NCBI RefSeq assembly: GCF_024199795.1
Contig: NZ_JANADK010000001.1
Location: 2,976,001 to 3,040,000, forward strand
Length of the DNA stretch: 64,000 nucleotides
DNA from: Bradyrhizobium sp. CCGB01
GTDB taxonomy: Bacteria; Pseudomonadota; Alphaproteobacteria; Rhizobiales; Xanthobacteraceae
Direction of reading: 5' to 3'
This document shows positions 3,816 to 47,981 of the stretch, piece by piece (positions within the stretch are counted from its first letter, which is position 1; every line of letters begins with the position of its first letter). The notes below the pieces were generated by a model. That model was not told the origin of the DNA, did no database searches, and saw nothing but the letters and a program-made list of their open reading frames with translations. The position numbers and the translations under genes were made by a program.

Positions 3816-4655
3816 ATGAACACGAAACCCTTCGGCAAGACGAGCACCAGCGTTTCCGTCATCGGTCAGGGCACCTGGTATCTCGACCATGGCGACCGCA
3901 AGCGCGCGATCGCGGCGCTTCAGCGCGGGCTCGAGCTCGGCATGACCCACATCGACACCGCCGAGATGTATGGCGATGCGGAGCTCGTCATCGCCGATGC
4001 AATCGCAGGCCGCCGCGACGAGGTGTTCCTCGTCTCGAAAGTGCTGCCGAGCAACGCCTCGCGGGGCGGCACCATCACGGCCTGCGAACGCTCGCTGAAG
4101 CGGCTGAAGACCCATCGTCTCGATTGCTATCTGCTGCACTGGCGCGGGTCCTATCCGCTCGAGGACACCGTTGCCGCGTTCGAGGAGCTGGTGAAGGCCG
4201 GCAAGATCAAATCCTGGGGCGTTTCCAACTTCGACGCCGACGATCTCGACGAAATCCTCGCGGTCTCCGGTGAAGGCCGCATCGCCTGCAATCAGGTGCT
4301 CTATCATCTGAAGGAGCGCGCGATCGAGCATGCGGTGATCCCGTGGTGCGAGAAGCACGGCGTTGCGGTAGTCGCGTATTCGCCGTTCGGGCACGATGAT
4401 TTTCCGGATGCGCGCAGCAAGGGTGGTGCCGTGCTCGCGCGCATCGCGGAGGCGCGTCGTGCGACACCGCGTCAGGTCGCGCTGAGCTTTCTCACCCGTG
4501 CGACTACGGTGTTCGCGATTCCGAAGGCGTCGTCCGCGGAACATGCCGGCGAGAATGCGGCCGCGGGCGGTCTCGTGCTGACGAAAGAGGAGATTTCGGC
4601 GCTCGATGCGGCGTTTCCGCGCGGTCCGAAGCCGCGCAGTCTGCCCATGCTGTAG
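3816..4655 (+). CDS. Aldo/keto reductase
   Basis: NADPH-dependent carbonyl reductase of the (beta/alpha)8 aldo/keto reductase superfamily, 279 residues, cytosolic. The catalytic tetrad is complete: Asp47 and Tyr52 in HIDTAEMYG, Lys75 in LVSKVLP and His108 in YLLHW. The family pattern GKIKSWGVSNFDADDL follows near residue 132, and the C-terminal cofactor segment contains IPKASSAEH. A GGAG motif precedes the ATG. It sits just downstream of the SMP-30 gene, suggesting joint work on a sugar or sugar-acid derivative, but nothing in the sequence fixes the substrate. A general stress or detoxification role is equally possible. Confidence 0.9.
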   Translation: MNTKPFGKTSTSVSVIGQGTWYLDHGDRKRAIAALQRGLELGMTHIDTAEMYGDAELVIADAIAGRRDEVFLVSKVLPSNASRGGTITACERSLKRLKTHRLDCYLLHWRGSYPLEDTVAAFEELVKAGKIKSWGVSNFDADDLDEILAVSGEGRIACNQVLYHLKERAIEHAVIPWCEKHGVAVVAYSPFGHDDFPDARSKGGAVLARIAEARRATPRQVALSFLTRATTVFAIPKASSAEHAGENAAAGGLVLTKEEISALDAAFPRGPKPRSLPML

Positions 4656-38661: not shown

Positions 38662-38775
38662 CTCCCACGCGCGTTGCCTCACGGGCTTGCGAATTGTTTC
38701 GGCGTGTCGAAGCGCGCCTTCTGCTCGCTCCTTGGCGTGGCATAGAACTCGTCCAGGTTCGGCCAACTCGGCGGT
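38641..38775. repeat. Copy 1 of a duplicated boundary segment
   Basis: The sequence starting CGGCACAGGACGGTGGTGTA recurs at 45841, exactly 7200 bases on, and the match continues with scattered mismatches and a one-base indel through TGGCATAGAACTCGTCCAG to about 38775. It covers the 3' tip of the isomerase gene and the 3' end of a second LTXXQ-type gene. The two copies flank the cyclase/PAP2/protease cargo as direct repeats. Confidence 0.85.
38679..38775 (-). pseudogene. C-terminal fragment of an LTXXQ-type protein
   Basis: On the minus strand this encodes LDEFYATPRSEQKARFDTP and a final SP before TGA, closely matching the end of the intact protein at 45880-47874 ([19 protein letters not shown]). 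Upstream, the reading continues into unrelated sequence, so all but about 30 codons of the gene are missing. The remaining 330 bases up to the cyclase gene show no recognisable gene. Confidence 0.75.
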
Positions 38776-39111
38776 TGTGATGGGCCTGATGCTCTACCCC
38801 CGCTTTCGGCAGCAGAATGGACTTGGTCGGACTTGCTGCCGGCTCGACCTGATCCCGAATGACCCGAGGCGGACGTTGGCATTTCTGTCGGGTGACGCCG
38901 GCTTTTGGGACGCGGAGGGACGTCAAGTCTGGTTTGAGGACCACCTCGTGGTTCGGCGCTCCGTGTCGCAAGATACTGGCGGACAACGGGACGCAAGCCA
39001 TCTGCTCAATGATGGTCGCGCGGGTCAACCAAATGTTGTAAGGTTCAACGATCGCGCGTCACTGCTCGGAAGGTGTCCGGGTACTTGGTCCCTTAGCATG
39101 ACAAGGTGCGC

Positions 39112-40911
39112 ATGAATCAGGCTGAGCAAGCGACAGAGGCGCCGTCCATCGCACCGTCGATGATTACGAGGCGGCTTGCTGCCATCGCCTTTGCCGATGT
39201 CGCCGGCTTTTCCCGGCTCATGGGTCTGAAGGACGTTGATACCGTCATGCGCTGGAAGGCGTTGCGGACCGAGATTATGGAGCCTCACATGGCTCGCCAC
39301 GGTGGACGGATCGCCGAGATTGCGGGCGACGCCGTGCTGGTCGAATTCCCGAGCGTCGTGAATGCGGTGCGTTGGGCGACCGACGTTCAGCGTGTTCAGG
39401 AGCGCATTGTCGGCGACAAGGATCCATTCGCGCTGCATCTTCGCATTGGCATCAACGTCGACGACATCATTGACGAAGATGGAATATTGCAGGGTGACGG
39501 CGTCAACGTTGCGTCTCGCATCCACCAGGCCGCGCAGCCCGGCCAGATAGTCGTCACGGCGGCAGTCCGCGACTACGTCATCAATCGACTGCCACTGACA
39601 TTTCATCACCTCGGCGCGCCTGTGATGAAAAATATCATGCGAACCGTTCATGTCTATTCCGTCGAGTGGACCGAGGGAGACGGAGACCGCCAGATCGCGC
39701 AGCCATACCTGCAATGGGCGTCGAGGCCGACGCTCGCCGTGCTGCCGTTCCGGACGATCGGCGGTACAGACGACGACAGCTATTATGGTGAGGGGATCAC
39801 GGACTCGATCATTACCGGACTCTCCAGAAATCGGTCGCTTTACGTCATCGCGCGCAATTCTACCCTTCGTTATAGCGCCGGCGGAAAAGACCTGCGACAG
39901 ATCGCCAGTGAGCTCGATGTTCGTTACCTGCTCGACGGCAGCGTGCAACGCCAGGGCACGCGATTGAGGATCAACACGGAGCTGACCGACATTTTGGGGA
40001 ATGTCTCGATCTGGGCCCAACGGTACGAGGGGTCCACCGACGACCTGTTTGAATTTCAGGATCGCATTGCCTCAAGCATACTGTCCTCGATCGAGCCGCG
40101 CGTTCGTGCAGTCGAGATGGCTCGCGTCGCTGACCGCCCGACCGAGAGTTTGGATGCATTCCACTGCGTCCTCCGCGCGATGTCGCTTCTGTATCTCCTC
40201 ACCGAAGAAAGCCACCGGGAAGCGGGTCAACTCCTGGAACGGGCGATCGTGCTCGATCCGTCCTATGCTCAGGCCCATGCCTACCTTGCGTGGTGGCTGA
40301 ACTTCCAGTTTGGCGAAGGTTGGTCGCTGGACCCGGACCGCGACCGGGCGCGCGCCCTCATCGTGTCGCGGCGCGCCATCGAACTCGACCCCGACGATCC
40401 GTTTGCGCTGGCTGTGGCCGGGCACATCCTCTCCTTCATGGGAAAATCACCGGGAGAAGCGATGGAGCTTTTTGGGCGGGCGCTGGCCCTCAACGAGAAC
40501 TTGGCGTTCGCATGGGGTTTGAGCGCCTTGACGCTCGCCTATTTGGGGCGGCCCGACGAAGCGCTGGAGCGATTGCAGAACGTATGGCGTCTTAATCCCT
40601 TTGATCCCTTGAACTTCTATTTTTGGATCGTGGCGGGAATTGCCGAGTTCGTCGCTGGGCGGTACGATGAAGCGATCGTTTACCTGAACAGGTCACGGCG
40701 GGCGAATCTACTTTTCCGTCCCTGCATACGAACTCTGGCCGCCGCGCTTGCCCTTTCGGGTGACGAAGCTGGAGCTGAATTGGCGGCTCGACAGCTTCTC
40801 GAAATTGAACCTTCGTTTAGAGTCTCAACTTTCGTTTCCTGGTATCCGCTGCGGAAGGATGATCTGGATCGTTTGGCGAAGGGATTGCGCGCCGCGGGGT
40901 TACCGGAATAG
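39112..40911 (+). CDS. Class III adenylate/guanylate cyclase with TPR repeats
   Basis: 599 residues from the ATG at 39112 (a GTG two codons upstream is possible). The N-terminal cyclase domain spans about 18-190: AAIAFADVAGFSRLMGLKD (first metal Asp), IAEIAGDAVLVEFPSVV (second Asp) and GDGVNVASRIHQAAQPGQIV. A FlgO/TolB-like segment follows (TLAVLPFRTIGGTDDDSYYG to YLLDGSVQR), then at least four TPRs from about 370 onward (LLERAIVLDPSYAQAHAYLA; SRRAIELDPDDPFALAVAGH). There is no membrane helix. This cyclase-FlgO-TPR layout is frequent in Bradyrhizobium. First gene of the insert between the duplicated segments; likely makes cAMP, possibly controlled by TPR partners. Confidence 0.9.
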   Translation: MNQAEQATEAPSIAPSMITRRLAAIAFADVAGFSRLMGLKDVDTVMRWKALRTEIMEPHMARHGGRIAEIAGDAVLVEFPSVVNAVRWATDVQRVQERIVGDKDPFALHLRIGINVDDIIDEDGILQGDGVNVASRIHQAAQPGQIVVTAAVRDYVINRLPLTFHHLGAPVMKNIMRTVHVYSVEWTEGDGDRQIAQPYLQWASRPTLAVLPFRTIGGTDDDSYYGEGITDSIITGLSRNRSLYVIARNSTLRYSAGGKDLRQIASELDVRYLLDGSVQRQGTRLRINTELTDILGNVSIWAQRYEGSTDDLFEFQDRIASSILSSIEPRVRAVEMARVADRPTESLDAFHCVLRAMSLLYLLTEESHREAGQLLERAIVLDPSYAQAHAYLAWWLNFQFGEGWSLDPDRDRARALIVSRRAIELDPDDPFALAVAGHILSFMGKSPGEAMELFGRALALNENLAFAWGLSALTLAYLGRPDEALERLQNVWRLNPFDPLNFYFWIVAGIAEFVAGRYDEAIVYLNRSRRANLLFRPCIRTLAAALALSGDEAGAELAARQLLEIEPSFRVSTFVSWYPLRKDDLDRLAKGLRAAGLPE

Positions 40912-40946
40912 CCGCATATAAATTTCAAGCGTCAGGGAGGCTTGCC

Positions 40947-42575
40947 ATGGGAGCTGGTGCTGGAGCGGGGGCAGGTGCTGGAGCGGGCGCAGGTGCTGGA
41001 GCGGGCGCAGGTGCCGGAGCGGGCGCAGGTGCCGGAGCGGGGGCAGGTGCTGGAGCGGGCGCAGGTGCCGGAGCGGGCGCAGGTGCCGGAGCGGGTGCAG
41101 GTGCTGGAGCGGGTGCAGGTGCAGGAGCCGGAGCGGGTGCAGGAGCCGGTGCAGGCGCGGGAGCCGGTGCGGCGTACAGTGCCGAAGCGGGGCCGGGCAC
41201 GGGACGCAGTTTTTACGCAACCCCGTGGGACCTGGGCTTTCGACCTTGGGCACTCGACTTCACTCCAGATGACGCTGGGAATCCGCCGTATCCGTGGGCG
41301 GAAGTCGTAAATCCCTATCAGGTCGACGCCGCAACCGGGCAGGATGCGTTCCTCGAATGGACGACCGATGATTGGGACCCGGCATTGCGGTTCTGGACGC
41401 TTCCATACGACCGTTATCTCACGCAATGGCTGACGGCAGTCGATCCCTCTCGACCGTCAATCATGGTGGCGCGGGAATTCGGCGGCCAGAGAGATCAATG
41501 GCAATTCGGTCGGGCTGAGCTGCTGGCGATGAGCTGGCTCGAGGGCCTCGATTTGGCGTGGCAACCCGATCCCCGGTCGAATCCTCTGGATCCCAACCCG
41601 TACGGCACTGCCACAGGTCCCGGGTGGATTGCGGCGAAGGCTGCGGCCTTTAGCTCGATCCTTGGCGAAATCGAACAACTGCAAATGTTGATGCAGGACG
41701 ATCGCGATCGCTATATGGCCGAAATCATCGAGCAGGCGGATGGCAGCGCCGGCTACATTACCGCCTTCATCGATACGAGTGAATCACGGCGCCCGTGGAC
41801 AATGGAGCTCATCAATTGCGGGTACGCGATAGGTAACGTCGCATATTTTTATTACAAGCAGCAATTCAGGCGCGTTCGCCCATCGACGTTATGCCCGGGG
41901 CTGGCGCCTCCGTTCGGTCCGCCCGCCCATCCGTCGTTTATCAGCGGGCATTCCTTCATCGGTCATTTCATCGCGCTTCTGCTCCTGGAAATACCGGCGC
42001 TTCGCCAGCGCTACGGCATGTTCGCCGCTCCATACGACGGAAAGCTGGGCAAGGTGGTCGACCGCTATCCGGCCGTGACGATATCCCTCGCCAACCCCGC
42101 TGTCGTCACCTTGAGCGCGTTGACGGCGCACGGTCTGAGCCCCGACGATCCGATCAATTTTGAGCCTCTTCCCGGCGGCCAGCCGCTTCCCGCGCCGCTC
42201 GTCGTCGGAACAACCTATTACGTATTGGCCCCCGGCTTGACCGCCAATAGCTTCGAAATTGGCGCTGTGCGCGGCGGCGTCCCGATCAACACCGGGCCTG
42301 CGGGGCCGGCTGTGGCGGCCTTGCTACCCTTGGCAAACCCTTTGATGGGGCGCGGCGAACTCACATCGCCGCTGCTTTGGCTTGCCGGGCGTATCGCCAA
42401 GAACCGCGAACGTCTCGGCGTCCACTATGCTTCCGACTCGGCTGGAAGTCGTCACATCGCAGCCGGTATTTGGCGAGCGCTGCTGCACGACAGCACGCCG
42501 AGCCGCATTCATTGTCCAACGCTCCGCTCGGTGCTCGCCCACGCAACCGCCGAGTGGCCGACCAAGTGGCCCTGA
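40947..42575 (+). CDS. PAP2/vanadium haloperoxidase-type protein with N-terminal Gly-Ala tract and inserted beta module
   Basis: 542 residues; ATG preceded by GGGAGG. Residues 2-76 are almost pure Gly-Ala alternation. The acid-phosphatase/haloperoxidase active site is complete: Lys304...Arg311-Pro (KQQFRRVRP), PSFISGHS at 329-336 (His335), and Arg487...His493...Asp497 (RERLGVHYASD). The Ser-Gly-His to Arg distance is about 150 residues, longer than in PAP2 proteins I know, because a beta-type module at about 376-455 interrupts it (LTAHGLSPDDPINF, VGTTYYVLAPGLTANSFEIG). That module resembles repeats of phage tail and surface proteins. No signal peptide. Vanadate-dependent halogenation or phosphatase activity are both possible. 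36 bases after the cyclase gene. Confidence 0.85.
   Translation: MGAGAGAGAGAGAGAGAGAGAGAGAGAGAGAGAGAGAGAGAGAGAGAGAGAGAGAGAGAGAGAGAGAGAGAGAGAAYSAEAGPGTGRSFYATPWDLGFRPWALDFTPDDAGNPPYPWAEVVNPYQVDAATGQDAFLEWTTDDWDPALRFWTLPYDRYLTQWLTAVDPSRPSIMVAREFGGQRDQWQFGRAELLAMSWLEGLDLAWQPDPRSNPLDPNPYGTATGPGWIAAKAAAFSSILGEIEQLQMLMQDDRDRYMAEIIEQADGSAGYITAFIDTSESRRPWTMELINCGYAIGNVAYFYYKQQFRRVRPSTLCPGLAPPFGPPAHPSFISGHSFIGHFIALLLLEIPALRQRYGMFAAPYDGKLGKVVDRYPAVTISLANPAVVTLSALTAHGLSPDDPINFEPLPGGQPLPAPLVVGTTYYVLAPGLTANSFEIGAVRGGVPINTGPAGPAVAALLPLANPLMGRGELTSPLLWLAGRIAKNRERLGVHYASDSAGSRHIAAGIWRALLHDSTPSRIHCPTLRSVLAHATAEWPTKWP
40948..41174 (+). repeat. 18-base minisatellite encoding the Gly-Ala tract
   Basis: At least eight consecutive units of the form CAGGTGCYGGAGCGGGNG run from 40972 to 41115, with degenerate 6- and 18-base variants on both sides. 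Variation is nearly all at third codon positions, so Gly-Ala is kept while the DNA drifts. Other frames also stay open through the tract, a by-product of its 6-base periodicity. Confidence 0.9.
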
Positions 42576-42642: not shown

Positions 42643-45495
42643 CTAGGGGCCGCCAACGACGATGAGACCGAGATTGTTGTCATTGGGTACGAGGTCAATG
42701 AGGTCCGTGGGCAGTTGGCTGCACGGGAATGACGTCGTTGGATCAGTGTTGGCAGCGTCGTCGCCGCAGGTTGCGATAGCCAGCACCAGATAGCGGGTGC
42801 CGGATGACGGTGGGTTGAACGTGAAATCAAATTCGACAGGCGGCGCACCGGGGGCAATGGTTTGGCCGGGGCTTGGTGACGGGGTGCACGGTGTCCACGG
42901 CGTTGACCCTGGTGAAGTATCATTCCATTTCGGCGGACTGCCACTGGGCCATGCGTGCCACCAAACGCTGACTTCAACATTCGTTGCCTGTTGACCGCCG
43001 CGGTTTCCGACCCTCACGGTAATATTGCCGCCCGACACGACGATCGCGCTTTGGTCGGCTTGCCACAAGGGCGGAGCACCTGAACCGGACTGGTTGGGAT
43101 CCCAATCGAGCGAGACCGGATTGTAGCTGCCCGGCCCATACGCGATATCGCCGTAGGGCGAGGCTTCCGAAAGTGGCCGCCGGTCCAGAATGTAGACGTC
43201 GACCGGCGGTGGAAGGCCTGGCGCGTTGGTGATCGTTCCGGCAATGGCATACAGGCCCTGGACTTCGAACGCCCAGCGAATGACCTTGTGCACACAGCCG
43301 CCAACCCTGTGGAACGAGAACGATTTGGTGTTGCTGGCGGTGTACGGAGGTGGAGGAAAGGTCACCGTAATGTTGACGTCCCAGGGAATGGGGCTGATGT
43401 CGGCGTCGATCAGCGCGGAGACGAGCTGATCCGGCTCGTTGGCCAACACGGTGATCGATGTCGGCAGAATCTGAATCCCCCTCATGATGAGGTAGACGGA
43501 ATAGAGCGAAGCCGACTCGCGGGCGGATTGGTCAGGCTGGTTTTGCGTTCCCACCGCCTTCGTGTCGCCGCCGATAGCGCGGTACAGCCGGAACAGCGAC
43601 GACGAGAGGATCTGCTCGGTCCAGTAACCCTTGCGGCGGGGCGGCGTTGAATCGGGCACCTGGGACATCGCATAGTGCAACGAGCCGCCCCAGCTCCATC
43701 CATGCGACACGCATCGGTCGTGGCGACGCGGCGCAAACACCCACGGGAATGTCGCGCCGCGCCAATTGCCGTCTCCCGCCAATTGCGATTGCGGGTCCGA
43801 GACGATCGCTGCGAGCGCGTCTCCGGCGCTGTGGGCGAAGCGGAATTCCAGCTCACCGACCGAGCACATCAAAAGCACATGCCCGATCTCGTGCCAGATC
43901 CAGCGCGCGTCGGCCGCGATGCCAAGCGGCTCCGCTTGCGAGCGGTTGGTTCCGTCCCATGGCTTGCGCGCCCGGGTCGAAAGGTTGGCCAGCGCCAAAT
44001 GCAGTTGCAGGATCGGACGATCGCCGAGCGGGGTCGGTCCGACGTAGTCGACCGGCCAGCCCTCCGGAAGAACACGTGCATTGACTGTCTGGCCGTCCTT
44101 GCCGGGGCCTGGCCTCACCCCGGAGCGATAAAAGACCTTGAGCGGCAGGCTGGCGATCCGAAAGTACGAAAGCGCATCAATTCCATACGCATCGAGCCGC
44201 TGGAAGAATTGCCTGACATTGTTGTAGGCGCTGATTGCCGCGAAGTCGTTCGATCGAACGAGAGGCGCGGACGTGCCGGGCAGATCGACCGTCTTCGGAT
44301 CTCCCGGGCTAGGGGGAGGGGGAGGACCGTCGGCAAGAACAAATCCGGGGCAAACCACCACCCTTTCATCTTCGATGAATCCTGGTGGTAGTGGAAGGGT
44401 CGTCGGCGGGTAGATCAACGGATCCGCCTGATGCGCGGTGATTTCCTCATAGTCGCGATAGTGCTCGAGTGCTTCTTCGCTGCGTGTCGGACGCCGTTTG
44501 CGAAGATCAGTCGGCGGCTCCTGCGACGCAGGATCAAGCGGAAACACCCACGCGTGTCCAGGCGTCACCGCGTCGGCGACGAGCTCAACCTTGCTGACAA
44601 GAGCCCCAGCTTCTTTCGGCGTCCCGAAGAACACGAACGAATACGGCGTAGCCTTGGTTCGGCCGCCATCCGTCTCGGGCTTGCTCGCGGCTTGCCACTG
44701 GACACTCGGTGTTCCGTCCGGTGTTCCGTCGGATGCGGTGGCGATCCGGACGCCTCGAATGGAGACGGATTGATTTTTCAAGCCAAGCTGCTCGGACATC
44801 TCGGCCTTGACCCGAGAAAGCGAGGCCGTTCTGAAGATCGGTGCGAACTCGTTTTTCTTTACCAAATTGAATACTTTGACGGTGCTGTAAGGGCCGAACG
44901 GAAGTGACGCGGTCATTCCGGTGATGCGTATTTCGTATTCTCCGTTTACCGGCCGCGCATGCGCAACCACGCGGATGCCGAACCCGGAGCCCAGGAAATG
45001 GCCGCGTGGTGGACTGTCGGGGTCGGCATCGGGGGCGGGGTCGAGGTCGGGAATCCACTCGGAAGCCACCAGAATCACGGTCTGATCGACAAGAGCGCCT
45101 GCGTGCGACTTGGGCTCAACTCGGAACGACACGAACGGGTTGCCGGCATCGTCGCCGTCCGGATCCGCAGGAGGCCAGCCAAGTGGCAGCCACCGGATGA
45201 AGCCCGAACCGCGCTTGAAGAACTCCCTCGAGTCGGTTGTGAACACTGCCGGCAGATCGATTGGCGGATCGATATCGTCGTTGCTCGCTACCGCTTCGAG
45301 GTATTCATTTCCCACGCGCTGCATATTGGAATCATCAATTGCGGGGACGGTAACGAGAAACGGAGCCGTTGGATGACGCAGCAAGATAGAGGTCGGTGTG
45401 TTGTCCGCGTCGCCCCAGCGCTCGCTCCAGAGCGCATATTTGCTGGGATGCCACTCCGGTGAATCGCCCGGTCCGCGAGCAACTTCATCTGCCAT
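42643..45495 (-). CDS. Large putative zinc metallopeptidase with C-terminal CARDB-like domain
   Basis: 950 residues; ATG preceded by AGGAGG, no signal peptide. Zincin motif HEIGH lies at 535-539 within IWHEIGHVLLMCSVGELEF, and AHSAGDALAAIVSDP about 18 residues later offers a further His and Asp. FPWVFAPRRHDRCVSHGWSW follows, a conserved-looking block. From about 810 an Ig-like CARDB-type domain is suggested by IVVSGGNITVRVGNRGGQQA and NVEVSVWWHAW. The first 400 residues have proline-rich linkers and no domain that I recognise. Convergent with the PAP2 gene, 67 bases apart. Protease function is inferred from the motif; it could instead be an inactive adhesin-like relative. Confidence 0.8.
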   Translation of the reverse strand: MADEVARGPGDSPEWHPSKYALWSERWGDADNTPTSILLRHPTAPFLVTVPAIDDSNMQRVGNEYLEAVASNDDIDPPIDLPAVFTTDSREFFKRGSGFIRWLPLGWPPADPDGDDAGNPFVSFRVEPKSHAGALVDQTVILVASEWIPDLDPAPDADPDSPPRGHFLGSGFGIRVVAHARPVNGEYEIRITGMTASLPFGPYSTVKVFNLVKKNEFAPIFRTASLSRVKAEMSEQLGLKNQSVSIRGVRIATASDGTPDGTPSVQWQAASKPETDGGRTKATPYSFVFFGTPKEAGALVSKVELVADAVTPGHAWVFPLDPASQEPPTDLRKRRPTRSEEALEHYRDYEEITAHQADPLIYPPTTLPLPPGFIEDERVVVCPGFVLADGPPPPPSPGDPKTVDLPGTSAPLVRSNDFAAISAYNNVRQFFQRLDAYGIDALSYFRIASLPLKVFYRSGVRPGPGKDGQTVNARVLPEGWPVDYVGPTPLGDRPILQLHLALANLSTRARKPWDGTNRSQAEPLGIAADARWIWHEIGHVLLMCSVGELEFRFAHSAGDALAAIVSDPQSQLAGDGNWRGATFPWVFAPRRHDRCVSHGWSWGGSLHYAMSQVPDSTPPRRKGYWTEQILSSSLFRLYRAIGGDTKAVGTQNQPDQSARESASLYSVYLIMRGIQILPTSITVLANEPDQLVSALIDADISPIPWDVNITVTFPPPPYTASNTKSFSFHRVGGCVHKVIRWAFEVQGLYAIAGTITNAPGLPPPVDVYILDRRPLSEASPYGDIAYGPGSYNPVSLDWDPNQSGSGAPPLWQADQSAIVVSGGNITVRVGNRGGQQATNVEVSVWWHAWPSGSPPKWNDTSPGSTPWTPCTPSPSPGQTIAPGAPPVEFDFTFNPPSSGTRYLVLAIATCGDDAANTDPTTSFPCSQLPTDLIDLVPNDNNLGLIVVGGP

Positions 45496-45840: not shown

Positions 45841-45980
45841 CGGCACAGGACGGTGGTGTAGCTCCCACGCGCGCTGCCCTTACGGGCTTGCGATCTGTTG
45901 CAGCGTGTTGAAGCGAGCCTTCTGTTCGCTGCTCAGCGTGGCATAGAACTCGTCCAGGGCGGGTTCGACCAGCTTGGCGG
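45841..45980. repeat. Copy 2 of the duplicated boundary segment
   Basis: Direct repeat of 38641-38775. It begins with the last 21 bases of the isomerase gene and runs into the 3' end of the intact LTXXQ gene. Together with 38641-38775 it brackets about 7.1 kb. Confidence 0.85.
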
Positions 45981-47874
45981 CGGTCAGCATCGCCTCGAGC
46001 CGGTGCTGCATCGCCTCCAGCCGTCCCACCGGCGTCAGCGGCACATCATTCGGACAGGCGGCCTGCAGGTCTCCAACGCCCTTCGCCGTCGCTTCGCCGA
46101 GGCGATCGAGCGCTTCCTTCTGCTTGCCTGCGGGATGCAGCACAGTCTCGATCCTCTGGATCGGCAACTGGGTCAGGCTGGACTTCGGATCGCCGCAGCC
46201 CTCGGCGCTGACTTCCTGCGGCTGCGGCGAGCGGTCGCCGACATTGGGGCCGAGCGCGTTGAAGCGGGCCTGTTGCTCGTCATTGAGCGAGTTGTAGAAA
46301 CTCTCCAGTGCCGGTCGCACGATCTTGACGGCTTCCAGCGTCGCGCTGACGCGGTTCATCATCGCGCGCAAGCGGCCGGGCGGAGTCAGTGCATAAGTCT
46401 CGGCGCAGGAGTCCTTGAACACACCGGCAGCATTGGCCGCCGCGGTCTTCAGCTCGTCGAGCAGGGTACGTTGCTCTGGCGTCGGCCGCACTGCTAGCGT
46501 GATATCGGCAAGCGGCCAGGCGGTCACGCCCTTGTCCGGTGTGCTGCACAATTGCTGGAGCGTCTGCGGGCTCACGCTGGCACGTTGGCGCGCGCGGTAG
46601 CTGCCGCCGGCTTGCGGATAGTCATAGGAGTTGGTGCTGGCATAGGCCGCATAGGGGCTGTCACCACCCCAGAACACGGTGTCGACGAAATCGTCATAGG
46701 CGTACGCCCAATAGCCGGGCTCGTAAGCATAGGACCAGAACGTGTAGTTGAAGATGTCGGAGTAGGCGTAAGGCCAGAACACGGGCCCAAGCCAAGCCAC
46801 GAAAGCCGCACGATGGCGGTGACGCCAGGCCTGGCGGGGAGACCAGCCGCTCTGGCGGGCGACGAGGGCCGCCTGGGTTTGCGAATTGGCCTGCTCTCGG
46901 AAGCGTGCCGCGAACCGCCCGCGCTCGGCAGCCTGCGCGGCGGCCGCGATGGTCGAGGCGCGCTCGGCCGGAGCCTGGAGTCCGAGCCGCTGCTGGCGAG
47001 CCAGGTCAAGTTGCTGGGCGCGCTGCTCGCGACCAAGCAAGCGGTTCTGCGTCTGGAGCATCCGTTGCTGCTCGCGTTGCGCCCGCGCGCCTTCCACCTT
47101 TTGCGACTGCAGTTGCTGCACGCGCTGCTGCAGGCGATCGATGCGGGTCTGGCGCTCCGTCGTCTGGCGGGACAGCATCTCGCGCTGCCGCTGCTGCACC
47201 ATCTGCCGGCGCTGGTCGACGTGCTGCTCGCGCTGTTGGACACGCTGCTCCCGCTCAAGCAGGTGGCTCTGCGACTGCAGCAATCGCTGCTGCTGGTGTT
47301 GCGCCCTTGCGCCCTCTGGCTTTTGCGACTGCAATTGCTGTACGCGCTGCTGCAAGCGGTCGATGCGGCCTTGGCGTTCCGCGGATTGGCGCGAAAGCGT
47401 CTCGCGTGGCCGTTCCGGCCCCACGCTTGCGGTGGGCGGTGCGCTGGGGCGCGCGGGGGCGGCGATATGCGGCGTCGGCCGCGGGGCCATGGCCGGACGT
47501 TGCGGCGCTGCCGGCGCCCGATGAATTTCAGGCCGCGGTGCCGCAACGTGCGGGGCAGCCCGCGGTGGCGGCGCAGCGATATGGGGGGCCGGACGCGGCG
47601 GCGGTGAGGCCATGCGGGGCGCCGGATGTGGCGCCATGGCCGGTCGCTGCGACATGGCAGGTGGATGGAATGCCGGCGCGGCGGGCCGCGCCATGGCTGG
47701 CGGCGCCGCCGGGCGGGCCATAGCAGGTGGTGCTGCAGGCCGCGCTGCCGGCGCTGGCCCTGGTGGTCCACCCCTTCCGTGTCCTGGCGGTCCCTGGGCG
47801 AACGTGCCGACGCTCGCTCCCAGCATCGAGACACCAACCAAAACAGCCGTCAGGCAAACGCCACGCGGAAGCAT
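45880..47874 (-). CDS. Exported LTXXQ (Spy/CpxP-like) repeat protein
   Basis: 664 residues from the ATG at 47874 (GGGAG and AGGA upstream). Signal peptide: [19 protein letters not shown] with cleavage near TFAQ. Next comes a Pro/Ala/Met-rich region with MARPAAPPA repeats, then two 74-residue Gln/Arg-rich coiled-coil repeats ([16 protein letters not shown] occurs twice), an aromatic patch ([19 protein letters not shown]), and two C-terminal LTXXQ-like domains ([36 protein letters not shown]) each ending near F(Y)xxLxxEQxARFN. Probably a periplasmic chaperone or envelope-stress protein. A fragment of a second copy remains at 38679. Confidence 0.85.
47000..47403 (-). repeat. Tandem coding duplication inside the LTXXQ gene
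   Basis: Two units offset by 222 bases (74 codons), each starting with E-T/M-LSRQ and containing [20 protein letters not shown] and EGARAQ. They encode the coiled-coil part of the protein. Confidence 0.8.
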
Positions 47875-47981
47875 GATCCTAGCTCCCAGCTCGTAATCGC
47901 CCACGATTTTTCAACGCACGGGTCGCGCAATGGTTCGTTGTGGGCAGCGGCTGGCATTGCGATCTTCCGACGCAGGTAGCC

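Follow-up and report, generated by a model that had tools for sequence, protein, structure and literature searches.

Short-period repeats occur in silk fibroin and other structural repeat proteins, and in fungal Kex2-processed repeat proteins the repeats are cut by a subtilase. A gene of Bradyrhizobium sp. CCGB01 encodes a PAP2 enzyme that begins with a short-period repeat tag. It lies at 40947..42575 of a 64,000-nucleotide stretch (contig NZ_JANADK010000001.1, positions 2,976,001 to 3,040,000, from a 9.3-Mb single-contig genome), which was analysed as a whole and is referred to below as the window. The best profile matches of its enzyme family were class A acid phosphatases (PhoC/PhoN; 7f17, 1d2t and 2akc), which have the same three active-site motifs; vanadium-dependent haloperoxidases (1qi9 and 1qhb) belong to the same superfamily. 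Beside the gene lie a predicted regulator gene and a candidate peptidase gene. Conflict systems with cyclic nucleotide monophosphate (cNMP) cyclase and peptidase domains in one neighbourhood, the domains being exchanged, are presented in parts of Kaur et al. 2020 (PMC7159879).

The enzyme, its regulator and its candidate peptidase

The features of the cassette in the window are given below, with residue conservation counted over the 91 loci described further on.

39106..40911, + strand: regulator, first gene of the cassette, 601 amino acids; predicted class III nucleotide cyclase domain (weak) plus TPR (Pfam)
40935..40940, + strand: Shine-Dalgarno-like GGGAGG, 6 nucleotides 5' of the ATG
40947..42575, + strand: repeat-tagged PAP2 enzyme, 542 amino acids; Pfam PAP2 E 3.2e-4, under the curated cut-off
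40950..41171, + strand: (Gly-Ala)37 tag, residues 2-75, from the translation
41856..41882, + strand: motif 1, K304-x6-R311-P; K and R kept in 91/91 loci
41943..41951, + strand: motif 2, S333-G334-H335; H kept in 91/91 loci, S in 74/91, G in 79/91
42063..42332, + strand: phage-tail-fibre-like inserted module, about residues 373-462, predicted from spacing classes, alignment and the phage matches of a relative's module
42405..42437, + strand: motif 3, R487-x5-H493-x3-D497; R, H and D kept in 91/91 loci
42643..45495, - strand: partner peptidase candidate, zincin-like, 950 amino acids, convergent with the PAP2 gene; predicted from motifs in homologues
43879..43893, - strand: HEIGH motif of the zincin-like partner, residues 535-539, with invariant H535, E536 and H539

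The window enzyme consists of Met, (Gly-Ala)37 and then 467 residues with complete active-site motifs. The initial annotation had described a silk-like alternation of Gly and Ala over residues 2-76; it is unbroken over residues 2-75 (74 codons), and residue 76 is one further Ala. The active-site residues that it had listed as intact (Lys304, Arg311, SGH 333-335, Arg487 and His493) are all in place, as is D497, and the distance between the SGH and Arg motifs, put at about 150 residues, measured 154. In the alignment, the catalytic K, R, H, R, H and D were all kept in 91/91 loci, the spacing of motif 1 being longer in some of them.

The same annotation had named the protein a vanadium-haloperoxidase/PAP2 protein. 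The PAP2 part was borne out, the complete active-site motifs being those of a PAP2-fold enzyme. The haloperoxidase part was not, since class A acid phosphatases were the nearer match of the family profile (7f17, E 1.8e-18) and vanadium bromoperoxidases the more distant one (1qi9, E 5.5e-9); identity as a vanadium haloperoxidase is therefore not established. The window enzyme scored 20.9 bits against Pfam PAP2, below the curated cut-off of 27.2, because the insert splits the match, which stops before the extra part; the relatives L013-L018 reached the cut-off (L numbers denote loci, P numbers database relatives, and G numbers genomes or places in the genome samples). In NCBIfam there was no family for the window enzyme, and 8 relatives gave only matches far below the cut-off or none. 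At the level of its motifs and profile, the protein is a PAP2/acid-phosphatase-like enzyme, and its chemistry is probably that of a phosphatase.

The same neighbours recurred in 28 neighbourhoods, and profiles were built from some of these. The profiles were then run on 91 loci, comprising the window, L007, L009, the 28 neighbourhoods and 60 further Bradyrhizobium places; the latter were every other one of 119 places, and none had served as a profile seed. The TPR-regulator profile matched in 91/91 loci, on the same strand upstream of the enzyme in 88 and on the opposite strand in 3, with a largest gap between the open frames of enzyme and regulator of 703 bases. A match to one of five peptidase profiles was found within 3 kb of the enzyme in all 91 loci (60/60 for the non-seed loci): G1/Peptidase_A4 in 26, S8b in 29, zincin-like in 16, S8a in 13 and C70 in 7. 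The peptidase gene lies downstream of the enzyme in 88/91 loci and beyond the regulator in L054, L065 and L066 (S8a). An exact-run tag of at least 12 residues was found on the enzyme in 89/91 loci, the exceptions being L060, with an 11-residue GL run, and L137, with poly-Gly in a frame next to that of the enzyme, and on the peptidases an N-terminal tag was found in 0/91. As judged from profiles and motifs, a TPR regulator with a predicted class III cyclase or DNA-binding front end thus stands near the enzyme, together with a predicted peptidase from one of several families in the same cluster, in most cases immediately downstream. The enzyme begins with a short-period repeat where some secreted outgroup acid phosphatases, as judged by eye, have a signal peptide.

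Two comparisons served as controls. None of the other PAP2 loci of the source genome (0/6) had the cassette neighbours, and PhoC-like outgroup loci (score at most 83) showed no tag, regulator match or peptidase match in 5/5. The gene families common to at least 9 of 32 neighbourhoods were the regulator, PAP2, zincin-like and S8b families and an ABC-transporter family (11 loci).

The window regulator matched Pfam TPR_2 at 5e-10, Guanylate_cyc at 4.8e-4 (under its cut-off) and PADLOC PycC at 6e-4. Among the front ends of nine regulators, six were assigned to class III cyclases (L131 weakly), one to BTAD and one to Trans_reg_C, and that of L068 to no family. The partner peptidases tested with Pfam matched Peptidase_A4 (3/3), Peptidase_S8 (5/5) and Peptidase_C70 (1/1), the zincin-like ones matching none. 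For the zincin-like partner in the window, no Pfam or NCBIfam match and, in a PDB profile search, no credible PDB match was found; HE[IF][GC]H, which fits the HExxH pattern of a zinc site, and AHS[AP]GD were present in 16/16 aligned homologues. Catalytic motifs were present in all aligned S8a (13), C70 (7) and zincin-like (16) proteins and in the S8b proteins that were aligned (22 of the 29), L141 being broken behind the Ser motif. In the G1 peptidases, searched by regular expression only, NWSG and W[IV]G.DG were found in 26/26 and the Glu motif in 24/26 (L122 and L123 unmatched). Except for the zincin-like one, the protein families of the cassette are already known.

In the S8b cassettes L068, L072, L164, L202, L203 and L239, the regulator lies opposite the enzyme strand; their tags are NAE, NAD, SSD, GNQ, AGR and TAQ, each with polar or charged residues. 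In L052, a GGGE-type locus, an open reading frame (ORF) of 204 amino acids (3957-4568) directly follows the C70 peptidase and may be a fourth gene of that type. In the window, a short ORF at 38679-38996 (-) ends in NLDEFYATPRSEQKARFDTPKQFASP, a stretch similar to the C-terminal end of an LTXXQ-family protein encoded at 45880-47904 (-), and is perhaps a remnant copy of that gene on the other side of the cassette.

Translation, letters and period of the tag

The Gly-Ala tract is very probably translated. The in-frame starts of the window enzyme are the ATG at residue 1 and then a TTG at residue 147, and between the tract and the TTG, six residues are invariant in 16 aligned proteins (W26, G36, P48, Y49, W63 and W68, in the numbering of the 467-residue part). 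Translation is indicated because no in-frame start other than the ATG precedes these conserved residues. Close homologues were found in 7/265 Bradyrhizobium genomes (the source included) and in Variovorax, all with a Gly-Ala tract; the named loci with close relatives are two from Bradyrhizobium and one from Variovorax. GGGAGG also precedes the ATG in L007/L026, L008/L025, L027 and L028, with AGGAG instead in L009, L011 and L012.

A neutral DNA minisatellite, or a misreading of GC-rich DNA, would be the alternative, with the protein beginning at TTG 147 as some databases have it. The DNA of the tract is indeed an 18-bp tandem (11.6 copies, 91% match), and the database entries P0002, P0004, P0007 and P0015, all GA-type relatives, begin at or near residue 147, behind the tract. 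The GA tracts run over 58-74 codons, eight of them distinct in ten rows, with an unbroken peptide and freely mixed third codon positions (31-47 departures per tract from the 6-base consensus). The tracts were located by their repeat pattern, and zero change at codon positions 1-2 is by construction; what is informative is the length run with mixed third positions, in GA and non-GA tracts alike. The 19 non-GA tracts were likewise mixed, including exchanges between CGN and AGR codons for Arg and between TCN and AGY codons for Ser. Together with the conserved residues before the TTG and the retained Shine-Dalgarno-like sequence, this renders the minisatellite explanation highly improbable. Nor is the tract due to chance, because such tandems are rare: an exact tandem of at least 12 residues (units of 1-5) near the N-terminus was found in 3/443 other ORFs of 32 loci; of the three, one lies on the strand opposite a tag and another is a string of X.

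Among the 120 listed database relatives (of 189 found), there was no long GA run, the longest being 10 residues. GA-type tags are thus absent from these entries, several of which begin well downstream of it, and this amounts to a blind spot of annotation. P0097, a divergent homologue without the insert, has a (GV/GS/GA)n N-terminus over residues 1-80, in which every second residue is Gly and its partner is mixed.

Employing a search profile built from the domain parts with the tags cut off, we found that distant PAP2 relatives in the same genus, in Alphaproteobacteria and in other Pseudomonadota start with other short repeats. With GA included, 42 tag units of 1-5 residues were counted: GA, GL, GM; TGN, AGN, GGY, TSN, TGD; GGGE, GGGD, poly-G; DF, DAR, DGM, ADG, GGNWF, GGGWQ, GGSWQ; GGA, SGA, GGT, GGM, GGF, SSD, SGV, GSF, NSF, NAE, NAD, SGGA, TAM, TGV, AGV, GNQ, AGR, QTQ, SGD, SGE, GGL, TAQ, GGH; and NK. 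In L137 (5600-6100, C70 type), the poly-Gly tag is out of the enzyme's frame, owing to a broken gene or a sequencing error. In L228, the contig stops before the tag is reached.

The letters turn over within clades, and the period stays with the enzyme/peptidase clade. It is three residues in the G1 (26/26) and S8b (29/29) clades, two in the zincin-like clade (16/16, including the 11-residue run of L060) and four in 6/7 of the C70 clade, in which L137 and L218 have poly-Gly. The S8a clade is mixed, with a period of two in one locus, three in three loci and five in nine. On a tree of 75 enzyme domains (a quick search, with several long branches), peptidase type required 5 changes (minimum 4) and period 5. 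Because the tree needs so few changes, period and partner are read as old and co-inherited, with about five events, and the letters as changing often inside clades. In six Phaeobacter plasmids, the NSF array varies by whole units, from 5 to 7, with the peptide unit kept. Where genomes with two or three cassettes were examined, the tags differed in 22/22.

The enzyme family was present in 116/265 Bradyrhizobium genomes, counted without the two weakest partial places (G219 and G200) and without second fragments of one gene. In the Alphaproteobacteria sample, 16/385 genomes matched, PhoC-like ones included, and in the Pseudomonadota sample 27/398, 5 of them PhoC-like. The latter sample gave 30 places: 18 newly examined, 11 already in the set, and G178, which was not included. 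Thirteen of the 18 new loci scored at least 95, and 13/13 of these were tagged. In 12/13 the regulator lay at most 150 bases from the enzyme (on the opposite strand in L202 and L203), and in L205 a weak regulator match lay 1.8 kb downstream on the opposite strand. An S8b match was obtained in 11/13; in L204 and L206, the next gene looks, by eye, like another S8 protease. P0054, P0100 and P0121 have no tag in their database entries, which were seen without upstream DNA; untagged members may exist.

Plasmid records with an enzyme match numbered 28, of which 12 were examined. Tag, regulator and S8b peptidase were found together on 11/12: six from Phaeobacter and those from Microvirga, Paracoccus, Rhizobium CB3060, Paraburkholderia phymatum STM815 and Terrarubrum; the Bosea record held enzyme fragments only. 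For five Phaeobacter plasmids, the existing annotation independently gives winged helix, PAP2, S8 peptidase, and for the Paracoccus plasmid it gives regulator, PAP2, S8 peptidase; in Microvirga and Terrarubrum, both neighbours are labelled 'hypothetical'. In L237 (the Phaeobacter inhibens M647 plasmid), the enzyme ORF is shortened and the S8 peptidase is in two pieces, as in a decaying cassette; the five remaining Phaeobacter plasmids do not show this.

The inserted module of the Gly-Ala clade

The initial annotation had pointed to an extra part between the SGH and Arg motifs. Spacing classes were derived from 121 proteins (the query and 120 listed of the 189 relatives found), 19 of which were not classed by the motif search. 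The remaining 102 fell into three classes of spacing from SGH to the motif-3 Arg (61-104, 147-175 and 227-252 residues), with no module in 45, one in 51 and two in 6. Because 45/102 classed relatives have no module, the extra part is read from the spacing as inserted material, with one or two modules of about 85 residues placed at one site (about 90 residues in the window enzyme). In the wider family of 91 loci, a spacing above 73, counted from the His, was confined to four loci (the window, L075, L079 and L007), and these are all of GA type. Among GA-type loci, L009, L011, L012 and L028 have no module, the window and L008 have one, and L007 and L027 have two, as judged by length.

The further suggestion, that the extra part resembles a repeat module of phage tail fibres, was upheld through the modules of relatives. 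In a tblastn search, a relative's module matched 20 phage records, among them the tail protein of a Rhizobium phage (E 4e-14) and the tail fiber of a Bradyrhizobium phage (2e-11). In PHROG, relatives' modules gave E 2e-4 with phrog_7765 and 0.007-0.009 with a tail-fibre family, and Pfam E1_FCCH matched L007 at 5.5e-6, under the cut-off. Searched by itself, the module of the window enzyme matched nothing in PHROG or Pfam; it did align, at 37-73% identity, with the modules of relatives. The sequences indicate that some members of the GA clade have acquired one or two modules of the phage tail-fibre kind between active-site motifs.

In the two-module GA-type proteins L007, P0007 and P0008, the copies seem nested, with two front halves followed by two back halves. 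In P0018 and P0049, by contrast, one whole module follows another.

Possible functions of the tag and comparison with known systems

The account to which we lean, tentatively and with less than even confidence, is that the enzyme belongs to a conserved three-gene cassette whose products may act jointly in the cytoplasm, with a self-associating tail on the enzyme, control by the regulator and release or trimming by the peptidase. The regulator would switch the pair of enzyme and peptidase on. The repeat tail would self-associate and gather the enzyme into an assembly of like tails, and the peptidase would free, trim or remove the assembled enzyme or share a target with it. What would matter is repetition with a given period and not residue identity, and the letters might change if the units change together. 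For enzymes of the GA clade, the inserted module would supply an extra binding surface close to the active site. Inspection of N-termini by eye revealed no signal peptide. In a bolder form, which we consider doubtful, the cassette would be a new kind of bacterial system whose enzyme is addressed by its tail, a self-recognition code fixed only by its period, with the letters free. Like tails or the peptidase would read this code, and control would lie with a regulator of the cyclase/TPR or DNA-binding/TPR type. Its corollary is no less doubtful: letters would drift or be replaced as a set, perhaps keeping co-resident systems apart, and the peptidase family would go with the period.

Several points weigh against assembly by like tails. 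The link between period and peptidase comes down to about five clade-level events and is indistinguishable from shared descent, and the S8b clade contains an exception, the four-residue SGGA of L195. Most co-resident cassettes are of different clades, for which different tags are expected anyway; there were only four same-clade pairs (G063, G152, G242 and G970), in which the tags also differ. Some tags are imperfect (L060 mixes GL, GN and GS; TGN-type relatives mix NTG, NTD, NDG and NEG), implying that a tag need not match itself perfectly. In character, the tags extend from silk-like ones to charged ones (DAR, AGR, NK and NAE), and it is not obvious that the latter assemble. Finally, in a crude scan, hydropathy exceeded 1.6 in 10/91 PAP2 proteins, 3/91 regulators and 10/91 peptidases, which is not decisive for location.

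The tag could instead be what the neighbouring peptidase cuts, as a substrate or a pro-segment: with many identical sites in a row, removal would be certain, cutting would release or activate the enzyme, and the peptidase family would dictate the period. The presence of a peptidase in every cluster, with catalytic motifs in those aligned, and the sorting of period with peptidase family agree with this. So does the zincin-like clade, in which the residue after Gly is mainly Ala, Leu or Met, residues that thermolysin-type zincins would accept. The tags beside S8b peptidases, however, include small, aromatic, acidic, basic and Gln-rich ones (GGA, GSF, NAE, SGD, AGR, GNQ and QTQ), a spread hard to match with the specificity of one fold, and the net charge of the S8b peptidase showed no trend with tag acidity (3 acidic against 26 neutral, a crude comparison with few acidic tags). 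Self-association is preferred because the letters vary so widely beside one peptidase family; the data are not decisive, and we rate the substrate explanation as rather unlikely. Export was also considered, the tag being a non-Sec targeting signal by which a disordered N-terminus of arbitrary sequence directs the enzyme, possibly along with the peptidase, to the outside of the cell, to a host or to an injection structure. The tag does stand where outgroup acid phosphatases have signal-peptide-like starts (L210, L211 and L047, by eye), and Peptidase C70 is named after a plant-pathogen protease. No secretion apparatus was evident among the families common to at least 9 of the 32 neighbourhoods, however, the peptidases are untagged, and disorder alone needs no repeats; this function seems distinctly unlikely.

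An abortive-infection or conflict system, in which the regulator would sense invasion or stress and the peptidase and phosphatase would be effectors, is compatible with self-associating tails. The varied, effector-like peptidases beside a fixed core, the patchy occurrence of the enzyme family in Bradyrhizobium and on plasmids, and the combination of cyclase and peptidase domains in the described conflict systems, as those parts of PMC7159879 present them, point in this direction. On the other hand, the partner types follow old clades without free exchange, and PADLOC 2.0.0, run on 8 cassette proteins, returned no system model and only the weak PycC match of the cyclase; with no effector model among the 8 proteins, Pycsar was rejected. 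We hold a role in conflict to be unlikely. Should the trio serve in stress or defence, it would be a new system of that kind.

A near-arbitrary repeat on the enzyme of a conserved trio is hard to fit with known protein signals, which need particular residues. If the tail works by self-similarity, the family would offer dozens of natural, distinct tags that self-associate or are addressed to a peptidase. Searches of an open-access library yielded no description of the cassette or its tags (subscription journals and preprints lay outside the scope of the search). The three-gene system is apparently undescribed, and its arrangement, the rules of its tags and the change of partner appear new.

Compared with vanadium-dependent haloperoxidases, which the family profile matched more weakly than phosphatases, no member with such a tag or cassette was found in the literature searched. 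In the conflict systems of PMC7159879, as far as the relevant parts of that source describe them, vWA/MoxR or GTPase parts are central, with no PAP2 enzyme or repeat tag. The repeats of silk fibroin and of Kex2-processed proteins differ from that of the cassette, which forms a short tail of an enzyme and whose letters are not fixed. Phage tail-fibre repeats (Pfam E1_FCCH-like; PHROG phrog_9370 and phrog_7765) match the inserted modules of relatives, but here the module sits between two active-site motifs of an enzyme. Relative to class A acid phosphatases, the cassette enzyme has a repeat tag in place of the signal-peptide-like start, is larger (467 residues outside the tag in the window), is accompanied by a predicted regulator and peptidase and, in part of one clade, carries the inserted module.

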